Assembly: GCA_947040495.1 (NCBI GenBank) | Contig: CAMRBQ010000005.1 | Location: 1 to 64,000 of the forward strand | Reading direction: 5' to 3' | DNA: 64,000 nucleotides | From: an uncultured Spirochaetia bacterium | GTDB lineage: Bacteria; Spirochaetota; Brachyspiria; Brachyspirales; Brachyspiraceae | In this document: positions 16,310 through 60,736 of the stretch, in pieces | Layout of the letters: the number at the start of each line of letters is the position of its first letter | Numbering within the stretch: position 1 is the stretch's first letter | Notes under the pieces: generated by a model | The model's database searches: none | What the model was told of the DNA's origin: nothing | The model's input: only the letters and a program-made list of their open reading frames with translations | Made by a program: the position numbers and the translations under genes

Positions 16310-17203
16310 TTATTTTGGTATACTTATTTTTTTAATACTATTTTTTAAAAGTTGAGGCACCCATATAAAGTCATCATAAATATCAAAGTCTGCTACAGAT
16401 GTAAGTGGACCACTCATTTTAGAAACCAACCTACCCTTGTTTAAATCATATATATATATAACAGAACCATTATCTTTCCCACTTCCCCAGTCAGATACAT
16501 ATAACATTTTATCTACAATCTTTATACCATCAAGACCACCCATCCCTATTTTATCTTTTGTTAATGTTTCATTTTTTTTTCCACTTATATTCATTTTATA
16601 AATATGCCCACCATTATCGTCGCCACCAAATGTAGAGCCTGCTATATAAAGCATTTTTTCAAAGTATATAATACCATTTGCTCCAACAATATCGCTTGCA
16701 ATTTCTTCATAACTCATTTCTTCTTTTTTAATATTAATAATATAAACTTTACCCGCACCAGTATCTGTTAAAGCAACTGTACTTTTATTAATAAGGGCTA
16801 TATCATTTAAAAATTTGGAATTTTCAATAGTAAGTTTAGATATAATTTTGCCACTTTCTATATTGGCAAGTACAACATTGCCTGGCTTTGCACCCGTGTT
16901 TACTTGATCTGCAATAACAATCAAATCATCCGATATAAATGTAAAACCTTTTGGGCTATCTAGTTCATTTCCAAAAAGTTTTTTGGCATTTGAACCATCA
17001 ATATTTGCTTGAACGATAAATCCATCCCCACTCTTTTCAGGAACACCCAAATTGCTTATATAAAGCATATCATCATATATCATTACACTTTCAGGTGCTA
17101 GAAGCATATCAATACGAATAGTTGATGATTTGGTAGTAGATGTAGTATCTTGTGCGATAACAGACATAGACAATAATACAAATAATAATAAAACTTTTTT
17201 CAT
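16310..17203 (-). CDS. Exported beta-propeller protein (SMP-30/NHL-like)
   Basis: A 297-residue secreted protein with a signal peptide (MKKVLLLFVLLSMSVIAQ). The mature part is built of repeated short strands with LYISNLGVPEKSGDG, LYIAGSTFGGDDNGG and LYVSDWGSGKDNGS blades, about six in all, as in periplasmic NHL/SMP-30-like propellers. Such proteins bind ligands or act as lactonases; I see no assured catalytic metal site. It stands alone between two terminator/promoter regions. Confidence 0.75.
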   Translation of the reverse strand: MKKVLLLFVLLSMSVIAQDTTSTTKSSTIRIDMLLAPESVMIYDDMLYISNLGVPEKSGDGFIVQANIDGSNAKKLFGNELDSPKGFTFISDDLIVIADQVNTGAKPGNVVLANIESGKIISKLTIENSKFLNDIALINKSTVALTDTGAGKVYIINIKKEEMSYEEIASDIVGANGIIYFEKMLYIAGSTFGGDDNGGHIYKMNISGKKNETLTKDKIGMGGLDGIKIVDKMLYVSDWGSGKDNGSVIYIYDLNKGRLVSKMSGPLTSVADFDIYDDFIWVPQLLKNSIKKISIPK

Positions 17204-17371: not shown

Positions 17372-17854
17372 ATGGAAAAAAAGTATATAATTAAAAGTAA
17401 TTTAAGAGACATTGATTCCGTAATAAAAGAAATATCCTCTGATGTAAATATTTTTTTTGCTGCGGATGATTTAAGAGAATTCCTTTTGGGCATCTATGAA
17501 ATGACTGTTAATGCTGTAGAACATGGGAATTTTGATATCACATATGAGATGAAAAAAGAGTGGCTAAGAAATGATGTATATGAAGAAGAATTGTCAAACC
17601 TTATAAATAAATTAGGGCATAAGCAAGTATTTATAAAGCTAGAAATATATAAAAATATAATTACTATAAAAGTTAAAGATGAAGGCAAAGGCTTTAATAT
17701 ACAAGAGCAAATAAAAAAGCAGACAATGGATAATATATTAAGGGAAAGTGGTCGTGGTATTATAATAACAAAGCATTTTTTTGATGATGTTTGTTATAAT
17801 GAAAAAGGTAATGAAGTCACTATTACTAAAATATTGAAAAATAAATTAGATTGA
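17372..17854 (+). CDS. RsbW-like GHKL ATPase (serine kinase/anti-sigma type)
   Basis: A 160-residue stand-alone HATPase_c domain. N-box YEMTVNAVEHGN, G1 box DEGKGF and G2 box SGRGIIITKHF are present in order. This is the RsbW/SpoIIAB type: such proteins bind a sigma factor or phosphorylate an anti-anti-sigma (STAS) protein. No STAS or PP2C gene is adjacent. Instead the next gene, 39 bases on, is a Nudix-histidine kinase, suggesting a shared signalling operon. Confidence 0.85.
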   Translation: MEKKYIIKSNLRDIDSVIKEISSDVNIFFAADDLREFLLGIYEMTVNAVEHGNFDITYEMKKEWLRNDVYEEELSNLINKLGHKQVFIKLEIYKNIITIKVKDEGKGFNIQEQIKKQTMDNILRESGRGIIITKHFFDDVCYNEKGNEVTITKILKNKLD

Positions 17855-17893
17855 TTTTGATATGTACTCATAATATTATAAGGGTTATCTTTA

Positions 17894-19432
17894 ATGTCTG
17901 AAGCAAAAAAAAAACTTGTAAAAGCAAAATTTAGCCATAAAAAACCAAAACAAATACTTAAAACAAATTTTTCTTCATTAGAAAGATATGAAGTTGTAAA
18001 TTACTATAGCGATGATAGTGCATCCAAAAAATATAATTGTGATATTTTAATGCATAAAGGCTTTGATGCTGTCGGTATAGTTCCATATTTATATATTAAT
18101 AATGAACTACATGTACTTTTACTTTCAAATTTTAGAGCCCCTGCTTTTTTCCGTGAAGCTATGGATAAACCTTCAGAAATACCAAAAGAGATACTTGAGT
18201 TTATAGAAATACCGGCGGGTATTATAGATAAAGAAGATAGAGAAAATGAAACCAATATAGAAAATGTTGTAAAAAAATGTGCATCTAGAGAGTTATTCGA
18301 AGAATGTGGTTATGCCCTAAAGCCAAACATGATAGATATATTATATTCATATTATTATACAGCGCCGGGTATTATAGCGGAAAAAATATACATCACAACT
18401 TGCAATATCACAGGCAAAAGGCAAAAAGAAATAAAAACTGATGGCTCTGTTATGGAAGAAAATATGGAGACATTTATACTTCCAATTACTACAGCAATAG
18501 AATATATACAAAAAGGGATTATCAAAAATGCTGCTACAGAAATAGCCCTATCCCGATTATATTATAAACTTGTTGTAGAGAAAGAAATGTCTTATGCAAA
18601 GATTATTAGCAAAAGATTAAATATGCTTAATAATGTTATTGGTGATTTAAAAAAAGAAAGCGAATATTATAATAAGCTTATTAGAGAATTCCGTGCAACT
18701 ATTTCGCATGAACTAAAGCATCCATTTACAGAAATTATAAACTATCTAAATATTTTAAACAAAGATGATGTTTCTGAAGAGATTAGAAAAAAAAGTATGG
18801 ATGTTCTACAAAGTAGCATAAGAAAAATATATGACAATAATAGAAATTTACTAGAAATTTCTTTTGGTGCGGATAGGATACAACAGACAACAGAATGCTT
18901 TGATATTCATGATACTATACTCGATATAGTTAATCAGTATAGATTGGCCTACAAATATGATATAGATGTAAATATTGATATAGAAGAAAGATGTAAATAT
19001 CTCATAGGCTTTGAAGATAGATTTCGAATTATCTTAGAGGGAATATTATCAAATGCATTAAAATTCACAAAAAAAGGCTCTATAAATATTACAGTGAAAA
19101 TTATAGATTCGTCATCAATAGGAACTAGAAAAATAGACTTCATGCCCGACTTATTTAATTATCATGTGCTTGGAAATATAAAACCATATGAAATAGAGTT
19201 TATCATAAAAGATACAGGTGTTGGTATAAAATCTAGATTATTAAAAAAAATATTTATTCCATTTTATCAAACAGATTCTAGATTCACAAGAGAATATGGT
19301 GGCATGGGTATAGGCTTATCTGTTGTAAAGGATTTTATAGAATCTATGCAGGGCAGTATAAAAATAGATAGCTCTATCGGTGTTGGAACTACTGTTACAT
19401 TAAATGTTGCTTTTGGACTAAGAGAAGAATAA
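17894..19432 (+). CDS. Nudix domain-histidine kinase fusion
   Basis: A 512-residue soluble protein with two parts. Residues about 55-225 form a Nudix hydrolase domain close to ADP-ribose/UDP-sugar pyrophosphatases: EFIEIPAGIID, then REL.EECGY completes the Nudix box (residues 109-138, with about nine extra residues between Gly and REL), then YYYTAPGIIAEKIY. After a helical linker (about 225-262) comes a DHp domain with ISHELKHPF (His272) and an ATPase domain: GILSNALKFT, DTGVGI (from residue 440), GGMGIGLSVV. No transmembrane segment, so it would sense a cytoplasmic nucleotide. No response regulator is adjacent. It overlaps nothing and lies between the RsbW-like and SGNH genes. Architecture is seen directly; ligand and partner are unknown. 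Confidence 0.88.
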   Translation: MSEAKKKLVKAKFSHKKPKQILKTNFSSLERYEVVNYYSDDSASKKYNCDILMHKGFDAVGIVPYLYINNELHVLLLSNFRAPAFFREAMDKPSEIPKEILEFIEIPAGIIDKEDRENETNIENVVKKCASRELFEECGYALKPNMIDILYSYYYTAPGIIAEKIYITTCNITGKRQKEIKTDGSVMEENMETFILPITTAIEYIQKGIIKNAATEIALSRLYYKLVVEKEMSYAKIISKRLNMLNNVIGDLKKESEYYNKLIREFRATISHELKHPFTEIINYLNILNKDDVSEEIRKKSMDVLQSSIRKIYDNNRNLLEISFGADRIQQTTECFDIHDTILDIVNQYRLAYKYDIDVNIDIEERCKYLIGFEDRFRIILEGILSNALKFTKKGSINITVKIIDSSSIGTRKIDFMPDLFNYHVLGNIKPYEIEFIIKDTGVGIKSRLLKKIFIPFYQTDSRFTREYGGMGIGLSVVKDFIESMQGSIKIDSSIGVGTTVTLNVAFGLREE

Positions 19433-19452
19433 TTAAAAAATGGGACATAGTT

Positions 19453-20100
19453 ATGAAAAAAAGAATAGTATGTTTTGGAGATTCAAATACATGGGGGGTC
19501 GACCCAAAATCTAATAATAGATTTGATGAAAATATTAGATGGCCAACACTTATGGGGCAAAACCTTGGGTATAATTATATAATTGTAGAAGAAGGGCTTT
19601 GCGGACGTACTACTATATGGGATGATGATGTTAATAATATTTCTAGTGGTCGCTCATATATGAAAATATGTATAGATAGCTATTATCCTTTTGATATTAT
19701 GATTATTATGCTTGGAACAAATGATTTAAATTCTAGTTATTCTGTTAGTTCAGATGATATAGCAAAGTCTGCTTCTAGTTTGGCAATGGATGTACTTAAT
19801 CATGACTACTCATCTATAGAAAATTTTGAAATACCAAAAGTTCTTTTAGTTTCACCTATACATGCAGGAAGCCGTGTTTCTGATATTAAATTTGGCTATA
19901 CAATGTCTAGCGATGCTTGTGAAAAATCAAAGCAATTTGCCAAAGAGTATAAAAAATATGCAGATATTATAGGTGTAGATTTTTTAGATGCTGCTATATA
20001 TGCAAATCCAAGTATTGATGATCAGTTGCATATAGATAAAGAAGGACATTGGAATTTAGCAAAGGCTATGTCAGAAAAAGTAAAGCAAATTATAGGCTAG
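19453..20100 (+). CDS. SGNH/GDSL-family esterase
   Basis: A 215-residue cytoplasmic SGNH hydrolase of the arylesterase/acyltransferase type. Block I is CFGDSNTWG with Ser11, block III is MLGTND, and the C-terminal DDQLHIDKEGHW supplies Asp/His. The VEEGLCGRTT segment is shared with small bacterial arylesterases that also transacylate. It has no signal peptide. It starts 20 bases after the Nudix-kinase stop, so it is probably in that operon. Substrate unknown. Confidence 0.88.
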   Translation: MKKRIVCFGDSNTWGVDPKSNNRFDENIRWPTLMGQNLGYNYIIVEEGLCGRTTIWDDDVNNISSGRSYMKICIDSYYPFDIMIIMLGTNDLNSSYSVSSDDIAKSASSLAMDVLNHDYSSIENFEIPKVLLVSPIHAGSRVSDIKFGYTMSSDACEKSKQFAKEYKKYADIIGVDFLDAAIYANPSIDDQLHIDKEGHWNLAKAMSEKVKQIIG

Positions 20101-38749: not shown

Positions 38750-40063
38750 CTAATAGTAATTATATTTTTTAGCGATATCAATAACAATGTCATGATTAAA
38801 TCTATGAGATGTTTTATTTGCCTCTATTTTGCCACGGAATGGAATACCCAATATATATAAATCACCTATTATATCAAGTATTTTATGCCTGACAAATTCA
38901 TCTTCAAATCGTAATTCTGTATTTATAATTTTATCTTTATCAATTATTATATGAGAGTCCATAAATCCCGCACCAACAATACCATGTAATTGGGCAAGCT
39001 GTATACTTTCTAATGTATTAAATGACCTTGCACATCCTATTTCATTTTTAAATTGCTCGGGCGTTTCAAAGATATATGTATAGCTTTGCTTTCCAATTGG
39101 ACTTGGAAAATCTATATTAAGAGATATATAAAGCCCATCATAAGGGGATATTTTTACAGATGTTTCATCTTTATTATTTATATCTCCGTATATAATTTCA
39201 TCCTCAATTACAAGGGCTCTAATTTTTGCATTCTGTTCTTTTATACCTGCATACTCAATAATACTACAAAAATCTAGCGAAGAACCATCTATATTTGGAA
39301 CTTCTTCATCACACTTTACAATCAAATTATTAATACCATACATATGAATAGTTGCTAAAAAATGCTCTGTTGTTCTAATTATACTATCCTCACTAGCAAG
39401 CACAGTTGAATTAGCATGGGAATTATTTGATGAGCTTTGAATATTATCGGGACTTAGTTTTATCCTTGTTCCCTTAGCCATATCAACAAAAATAATCCCG
39501 TGATTTGGAGGGGCTGGTAATAGCTGCATTGCAGTACTACGACCACTCATCAATGCATGCCCTGATATTACAACGCTATTTTCTATAGTCTTTTGATTTA
39601 TGGTATTTTTTATATTATTAATAGATGTTAAAGGCAAAGTGTTTTGTTTAATATCAGGTGTTTTATTTGATATATTTTCATCACTTTTATTTGGTATATA
39701 TATTTTACATAGAGATAAAATTTTTGAAGCAGTGAAAGGCTTTTCTATAAAGTCACTTGCTCCCATTTTTGTGGCACGCACTATAGTTTCTACACCAGCA
39801 TGCCCGCTCATCATAATTATTTTTAAGTCTTTTTTTATATTTGATATATCTGATAATATTTCAAGTCCATCAATATTTGGCAGCCATAAATCTAAAAATA
39901 CTAAATCTAAGTCGATTCTTTGGATATAATCGAGCCCTTCTCTGCCATCACCTGAAACATATACAGTATAATTTTCATTTTCCAGTATACTCTTTAATGA
40001 TGTATTTATATCTTTTTCATCATCTATAATTAATATATTACCATTGCTTTTATCTTCTTTCAT
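38750..40063 (-). CDS. lpxC: Receiver domain-LpxC fusion
   Basis: A 437-residue protein. Residues 8-125 are a response-regulator receiver domain with the acidic pocket D14/D15, phospho-acceptor D58, S86 and K108 all conserved. A linker (126-160) leads to UDP-3-O-acyl-N-acetylglucosamine deacetylase, the committing step of lipid A synthesis: LLPAPPNHGIIF, RTTEH (E233, H234), ARSF, RHKILD (H393, D397) and H420. All expected zinc ligands and catalytic residues are there; the usual GLHTG loop is altered to ALMSG. LpxC is normally about 300 residues without a receiver domain. It is monocistronic with a strong promoter and no ribosome site. The kinase partner is unknown. Confidence 0.92.
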   Translation of the reverse strand: MKEDKSNGNILIIDDEKDINTSLKSILENENYTVYVSGDGREGLDYIQRIDLDLVFLDLWLPNIDGLEILSDISNIKKDLKIIMMSGHAGVETIVRATKMGASDFIEKPFTASKILSLCKIYIPNKSDENISNKTPDIKQNTLPLTSINNIKNTINQKTIENSVVISGHALMSGRSTAMQLLPAPPNHGIIFVDMAKGTRIKLSPDNIQSSSNNSHANSTVLASEDSIIRTTEHFLATIHMYGINNLIVKCDEEVPNIDGSSLDFCSIIEYAGIKEQNAKIRALVIEDEIIYGDINNKDETSVKISPYDGLYISLNIDFPSPIGKQSYTYIFETPEQFKNEIGCARSFNTLESIQLAQLHGIVGAGFMDSHIIIDKDKIINTELRFEDEFVRHKILDIIGDLYILGIPFRGKIEANKTSHRFNHDIVIDIAKKYNYY

Positions 40064-59392: not shown

Positions 59393-60736
59393 CTAACTAT
59401 CAGACTTTATTTTTCTGTATAGTGTTGCCCGTTCAATACCCAAAATATCTGCCGTACGTGCCTTATTATATTCATTCTTAACAAGCATATATTCTATATA
59501 AAGTTTTTCAACCTCAGCAAGAGAAATATCTTCATTTATAGTGAATATTTCTTGATTATTATTAAGTACACCATCAGGTATATCATTTTCTGTTATTTTT
59601 TCACCATCCGACATTACAACCATTGTTTCTATTGTATTTCTAAGCTGCCTAATATTACCTACCCAAGATGCTAATGTTAATATTTTATATACTTTATTAT
59701 CAATAGATTTTATCTCTTTATCATGCTCTTTTGAAAACTCTTTTATAAAGTTATCTATAAGCAGTGGTATATCTTCTCGCCTTTCTCTTAATGGAGGTAC
59801 ATCTATCCTTATAACATTTAATCTATAAAACAAATCTTCTCTGAAAGAACCGTTCTTTACACTTTCAGATAGCTTTTGATTCGTAGCTGCAATAACACGT
59901 ATATCAACTGGTATAGGTATATTTGAACCAACCCGCTCAATAGTTCTATCTTCAAGAACCCTTAATAGCTTAACTTGAGTGGAGGCAGATATTTCAGCAA
60001 TCTCATCCAAAAAAATAGTGCCTTTATTGGCGGCCTCAAAACGTCCTATTTTTTTATCAAGAGCCCCCGTGAATGAACCCTTTTCATGCCCGAAAAGTTC
60101 ACTTTCAAGTATACCCTCAGATAATGCCGCACAGTTTACTTTGATAAAAGGATTATTTTTTCTATCAGATATATTATGTAGTGCATCGGCTATAAGCTCT
60201 TTACCAGTACCACTTTCCCCTTCTATAAGGCATGTTGCTTTAGTACGTCCAACTTGCTTTATAGCATTATATACTTTTTGTATTTTAGCACTATGCCCTA
60301 TCATCCCATAAAATGTTTGAGTATAATCTAGCCTATCTTCTAATATTTCTTTATCTTTTTTTGTTTTTTTATTTTCTAAGGCACGTGCTATAATAAGTGA
60401 TAATTTGTCAAGGTTTAATGGCTTGGTTAAAAAATCATAAGCACCTTTACGCATTAGTTCCACAGCTGTTTCAATATTACCATGACCTGTAAGAATAATC
60501 ACTGGTATATTTTTATCAAACTCAAGTATATCAGAAAGCATATCTTCGCCATTTTTTTTTGGCATACGTAAATCAGTTACAACTAAATCAATACCACCCG
60601 CATATATGATATTTATAGCAACCTCTCCATCCTCACCCGTTATAACTTCATAGCCATCATATTCTAGCGATTTTTTAAGACCATCGCGTATATTTTTTTC
60701 ATCATCTGCTATAAGTATTCTAGGCATATCATACAT
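59393..60736 (-). CDS. Sigma-54-dependent response regulator (NtrC family)
   Basis: A 447-residue REC-AAA+-Fis protein. Receiver domain with ADDEKN, phospho-Asp in VVTDLRMP, and Lys in LTKPL; AAA+ domain with Walker A GESGTGKE and L1 loop GSFTGA (usually GAFTGA), Walker B GTIFLDEI; Fis-type helix-turn-helix at the C-terminus (NKARTADILGIERATLYRKI). It activates sigma-54 promoters. No histidine kinase is adjacent. MlaE is the next gene, so membrane-lipid transport is a plausible target, though unproven. Confidence 0.95.
   Translation of the reverse strand: MYDMPRILIADDEKNIRDGLKKSLEYDGYEVITGEDGEVAINIIYAGGIDLVVTDLRMPKKNGEDMLSDILEFDKNIPVIILTGHGNIETAVELMRKGAYDFLTKPLNLDKLSLIIARALENKKTKKDKEILEDRLDYTQTFYGMIGHSAKIQKVYNAIKQVGRTKATCLIEGESGTGKELIADALHNISDRKNNPFIKVNCAALSEGILESELFGHEKGSFTGALDKKIGRFEAANKGTIFLDEIAEISASTQVKLLRVLEDRTIERVGSNIPIPVDIRVIAATNQKLSESVKNGSFREDLFYRLNVIRIDVPPLRERREDIPLLIDNFIKEFSKEHDKEIKSIDNKVYKILTLASWVGNIRQLRNTIETMVVMSDGEKITENDIPDGVLNNNQEIFTINEDISLAEVEKLYIEYMLVKNEYNKARTADILGIERATLYRKIKSDS

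Follow-up and report, generated by a model that had tools for sequence, protein, structure and literature searches.

A Nudix-histidine kinase fusion conserved across a spirochaete order and commonly encoded beside an RsbW-like protein

Nudix domains are known as the input of regulatory proteins from the Nudix-HTH regulators NrtR and AraR, in which the Nudix box is degenerate; several NrtR-family Nudix sensors lack activity, and ADP-ribose is a known NrtR effector (PMC4666351). Partner switching driven by a receiver protein has been described in Pseudomonas, where HsbR (REC-PP2C-RsbW) performs this role (PMC6482189). The 512-residue protein analysed here resembles NrtR and AraR in that a Nudix domain provides the regulatory input, but their output is DNA binding whereas its C-terminus is HisKA-HATPase, and its Nudix box is undegraded with the box glutamates intact. 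In comparison to E. coli NudK (GDP-mannose pyrophosphatase) and the ADP-ribose pyrophosphatases, the Nudix half has the same fold, REUxEExGU helix glutamates, acidic L9 loop and C-terminal helix region, but differs in a box lengthened by 5–9 residues, a score under the TIGR00052 cut-off and the fused histidine kinase. The kinase half shares the H, N, G1 and G2 motifs and the core fold of HK853-like HisKA kinases, and departs from them in its Nudix sensor, a His at the T/N position and a PDLFNYH insert. The likeness to HsbR and CrsR (REC-PP2C-RsbW, with a STAS antagonist) lies in an order-wide REC-PP2C protein, STAS proteins throughout the family and an RsbW-like protein encoded next to the kinase; the RsbW-like protein is, however, the product of a separate gene co-encoded with the Nudix kinase, and its connection to REC-PP2C is putative.

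The locus lies in a stretch of 64,000 nucleotides (the window) from an uncultured bacterium whose genome represents a distinct genus within the Brachyspiraceae. Three co-directional open reading frames on the forward strand encode an RsbW-like GHKL ATPase of 160 aa (17372–17854), the Nudix-histidine kinase (17894–19432) and a 215 aa SGNH/GDSL hydrolase (19453–20100; Pfam GDSL lipase, 9e-13), separated by intergenic gaps of 39 and 20 bases respectively. Promoter and terminator scanning returned 27 promoter-like sites where 26 were expected and found no terminator. Divergent from the RsbW-like gene, a gene at 16310–17203 on the reverse strand encodes a protein that is predicted to be secreted and weakly resembles ScyD/ScyE.

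The earlier note on this DNA, made from the sequence alone, had proposed a three-gene operon, and gene neighbourhood comparison upheld only its first two members. In 28 of 29 Brachyspiraceae genomes the RsbW-like gene immediately preceded that of the kinase, while the SGNH gene adjoined the kinase in the window genome and in none of the other 30 genomes, and was therefore dismissed as a component of the system. The conserved unit is thus the RsbW-like gene together with the kinase gene, although this pairing is not required everywhere, as neither the sister family nor one genome of the Brachyspira group (G002) carried the RsbW-like gene next to the kinase. The RsbW-like protein matched PF13581 (HATPase_c_2) at 7e-15 with intact N, G1 and G2 boxes, and these motifs (YExxxNAxEHGN, DxGxGF and GRG) were conserved in the 28 orthologues; its score of 30 bits lay below the RsbW equivalog cut-off of 145. 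Proteins with STAS and SpoIIE domains are encoded in the genome, none of them linked to this RsbW-like gene.

Other genes were seen around the kinase in relatives. A convergent cluster of small genes on the opposite strand downstream of the kinase occurred at some loci (L033, L038, L042, L053, L056) and not in all relatives; its L033 version codes for an ECF sigma factor and a candidate zf-HC2 anti-sigma factor. This ECF sigma/anti-sigma pair, found convergent 3' of the kinase in some Brachyspiraceae, was set aside as not conserved. A subset of Brachyspira carried a second RsbW-like gene on the opposite strand just 3' of the kinase (L055:7799-8242, L051:7878-8306). In the sister family a gene for a small lipoprotein-like protein overlapped the kinase gene from upstream (L057:5513-5986, L032:1111-1512); the protein had no Pfam match, and by Pfam the small upstream genes of this family did not resemble RsbW.

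Full-length orthologues of the kinase were found once per genome in each of the 31 genomes that were examined for this order (29 from the Brachyspiraceae and two from the sister family), and the fusion was intact in each, which rules out a frame error merging two separate genes. A single stop flagged by profile search in one genome (G030) lay outside the 506-residue frame that was analysed. Orthologues within the Brachyspiraceae shared 50–53% identity with the window kinase, and those of the sister family about 38%. The two halves of the protein, Nudix and kinase, diverged alike (for example 49% and 52%, or for the sister family 37% and 39%), indicating similar constraint on both. The fusion, which the earlier note had read as a Nudix domain joined to a histidine kinase, runs in the order Nudix domain, helical linker, HisKA and HATPase. 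The protein lacks transmembrane segments, its Kyte-Doolittle mean over 19 residues peaking at 1.27, so that its description as a soluble kinase also held.

Pfam searches of the window protein matched HATPase_c at 3e-18, HisKA at 7e-6 (slightly below the cut-off) and NUDIX at 0.047, a weak match below the cut-off for this protein alone; among the orthologues, 24 of 26 matched PF00293 (NUDIX) at E 0.01 or better and HisKA was detected in 26 of 26. The HisKA region (residues 264–312; 18683–18829) contains the putative phosphoacceptor H272 (18707–18709) within the H-box HELKHP, which reads HEL[RKN]HP in all 31 kinases, and the HATPase_c domain (residues 374–505; 19013–19408) contains N387, the G1 motif D440xGxG and the G2 motif GxGxGL. 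H272, N387, D440/G442/G444 and G470/G472/G474 were invariant in the alignment of 31 kinases, as was a family-specific PDLFNYH motif (residues 418–424; 19145–19165) in an insert preceding the G1 box, and the predicted kinase core matched HK853 and others in structure comparison. The HExxT/N motif beside the phosphoacceptor underlies phosphatase function in kinases of this kind. It was absent here, as a His occupies the T/N position in 31 of 31 sequences (HEL[RKN]H), and its absence concerns phosphatase activity and not membership among the kinases.

To survey the fusion more widely, 84,980 species genomes were scanned with two conserved peptides, [TG]DGSVMEE and D[FL]SPDLFN, which identified 19 fused orthologues, all from Brachyspira or spirochaetes, and none outside the order, in a scan that is blind to kinase fusions of other Nudix subfamilies and to members with altered peptides. 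The same scan returned 28 loci with the Nudix half only, including Planctomycetota and ‘Deltaproteobacteria’ bins; their frames continued just 0–49 residues beyond the matched stretch, and tblastn with the kinase half and RsbW as queries found no kinase or RsbW relative near any of the 28. Profile searching of 393 Spirochaetota genomes with the Nudix half gave strong matches exclusively to the 31 fused genes, along with 15 weaker matches in frames of 175–232 residues. Scanning of viral_contigs gave no matches. Published descriptions of a Nudix-kinase fusion were likewise sought, and none was found in the open-licence literature, which is weak evidence of absence.

Several lines of evidence agree with the earlier assignment of the Nudix half (residues 1–225; 17894–18568) to the ADP-ribose/sugar-nucleotide pyrophosphatase type. 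TIGR00052 (YffH/AdpP) aligned to residues 20–220 at 3e-12, with 46.6 bits against a cut-off of 79.55, so that by sequence this half is a divergent relative of the family and not a filed member. Among PDB entries the family profile matched NudK and ADP-ribose pyrophosphatases (E 8e-11 at full length, 5e-14 with the Nudix half only), and the Nudix half modelled alone (pLDDT 88) matched ADP-ribose diphosphatase and NudK with a TM-score of 0.7–0.8, normalised by target length. The only other Pfam-NUDIX protein found in the window genome is short and zinc-ribbon-like, and the Nudix kinase may therefore be the sole AdpP-type enzyme of this genome.

The canonical Nudix box, GX5EX7REUXEEXGU, has 14 residues from G to R. 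In the window protein the box (residues 109–140; 18218–18313) spans 23 residues from G109 to R132, which bears out the nine-residue insertion already reported; the spacing was 22 in 28 other kinases and 19 in the sister family. The earlier note had suggested that this insertion could mean the loss of hydrolysis with binding retained, which would make the Nudix half a hydrolytically dead ligand sensor similar to NrtR and AraR. Apart from the abnormal spacing, this has the precedent of the inactive sensors in the NrtR family (PMC4666351). However, the box is longer in stand-alone relatives too, with 4–5 extra residues in those counted by eye, so that lengthening characterises the wider group and does not mark decay in the kinases, and the insertion was ruled out as an argument for inactivation. 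Furthermore, G109, R132, E133, E136, E137 and G139 of the box (RELFEECGY at its helix) and E163 were invariant in the 31 kinases, whereas AraR has two or three of its box glutamates replaced. The loop DGSVMEE (residues 183–189; 18440–18460), which aligns to GGGVEDE of NudK where ADPRase and NudK have their catalytic L9 loop, retains E188 and E189 in all 31 and, in the form D183-G-S-x-M-E-E189, was invariant together with E133, E136, E137 and G139 in 46 fused and stand-alone sequences. Since these residues are invariant, unlike the degenerate box of AraR and NrtR, we think that hydrolysis is more likely kept than lost, and a dead sensor appears unlikely. The catalytic base is nevertheless uncertain, as D152 of NudK aligns with the non-conserved position 190. 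In addition, the 26 sequences of the Brachyspira group have SSG and so lack the proline of the SPG motif that is typical of ADP-ribose pyrophosphatases, and the substrate may therefore be something other than ADP-ribose.

Our preferred explanation, which we hold at a probability of roughly 0.6, is that this protein is a cytosolic sensor histidine kinase with a YffH/AdpP-type Nudix input, autokinase activity set by a ligand and, most plausibly, an output by partner switching. Together with Mg2+, the Nudix half would bind a nucleotide-diphosphate compound from inside the cell, either ADP-ribose or a sugar nucleotide, would probably hydrolyse it, and would probably dimerise like its enzyme relatives. 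An AlphaFold2 model of the whole protein, a monomer of moderate overall confidence (mean pLDDT 79, pTM 0.56), predicted a single helix from residue 213 to 288 (18530–18757), in which the last Nudix helix runs unbroken into the DHp helix carrying H272; 11 of 13 a/d positions in its heptad register are hydrophobic, which is compatible with a coiled coil. We infer that the ligand state is transmitted along this helix, such that occupancy would shift the C-terminal Nudix helix, which is also the first DHp helix, and so set autokinase activity. Alternatively, the Nudix half may be a working pyrophosphatase that is regulated by the kinase half or its partner, or the two activities may simply be tethered. 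The invariance of box glutamates and loop in 31 of 31 kinases, the same residues in stand-alone homologues and its possible standing as the only AdpP-type enzyme of the genome would suit such an enzyme, but the N-terminal input position with a continuous predicted helix to the DHp is the usual arrangement of a sensor, and the kinase protein has no receiver to be phosphorylated; we consider this improbable. Enzymes of the ADPRase type are dimers, and the predicted helix continuity would suit a constitutive dimer, so the Nudix half could also be imagined as a dimerisation or docking module that senses no small molecule, yet strict conservation of an active site is unexpected for a scaffold and this is the least probable interpretation. 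Within the sensor kinase explanation, the further proposal that an active Nudix hydrolase reads the flux of ADP-ribose or sugar nucleotides, has its signal erased by hydrolysis and feeds partner switching as an order-wide class of sensor is possible but tentative.

The phosphate would pass to a response regulator encoded elsewhere. In agreement with the earlier note, no response regulator adjoins the kinase, and the closest REC domains in the window lie at 39713–40036 and 60392–60718. The genome encodes about five sensory histidine kinases, namely a PhoR-like kinase adjoining a receiver gene, two kinases with an NtrB-type H-box (HEIKNP), a GAF-containing HATPase protein and the Nudix kinase, and REC-PP2C, REC-LpxC, REC-RsbW, HTH-REC and REC-GGDEF proteins are among its receivers that lack an obvious kinase. 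REC-PP2C was found in each of the 31 genomes examined for the order, and STAS and SpoIIE-type phosphatase domains in 29 of 29 Brachyspiraceae genomes. The most plausible route for the signal would involve REC-PP2C, STAS proteins and the co-encoded RsbW-like protein, and the signal could plausibly run from the kinase through REC-PP2C and STAS to RsbW; REC-LpxC is as universal as REC-PP2C, and order-wide co-conservation is no proof of pairing.

Two of these receivers were observed as fusions of their own. The REC-LpxC protein (38753–40063, reverse strand; 437 aa) matched LpxC at 7e-69 and Response_reg at 8e-29, had a match in all 31 genomes, which spanned almost the entire protein in 30 of them; a lipid A enzyme as the output of a response regulator is unusual, and the literature search found no description of this fusion. 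A receiver fused to an RsbW-type HATPase_c_2 domain, 263 aa in length, was found at L098:2555-3343 (G000:C2:29054).

In summary, this sensor architecture is genuine, conserved and made of known domains, while its function is inferred. Sensor kinases with a Nudix input appear to be undescribed in the open-licence literature that was searched. The Nudix kinase is a universal single-copy gene of the order, which includes the gut spirochaete Brachyspira, and its occurrence throughout the order, usually beside a switch protein, suggests an undescribed way for these bacteria to read their own nucleotide metabolites. Should the intact Nudix site act as the sensor, the turnover of NAD or sugar nucleotides would be linked directly to two-component signalling.
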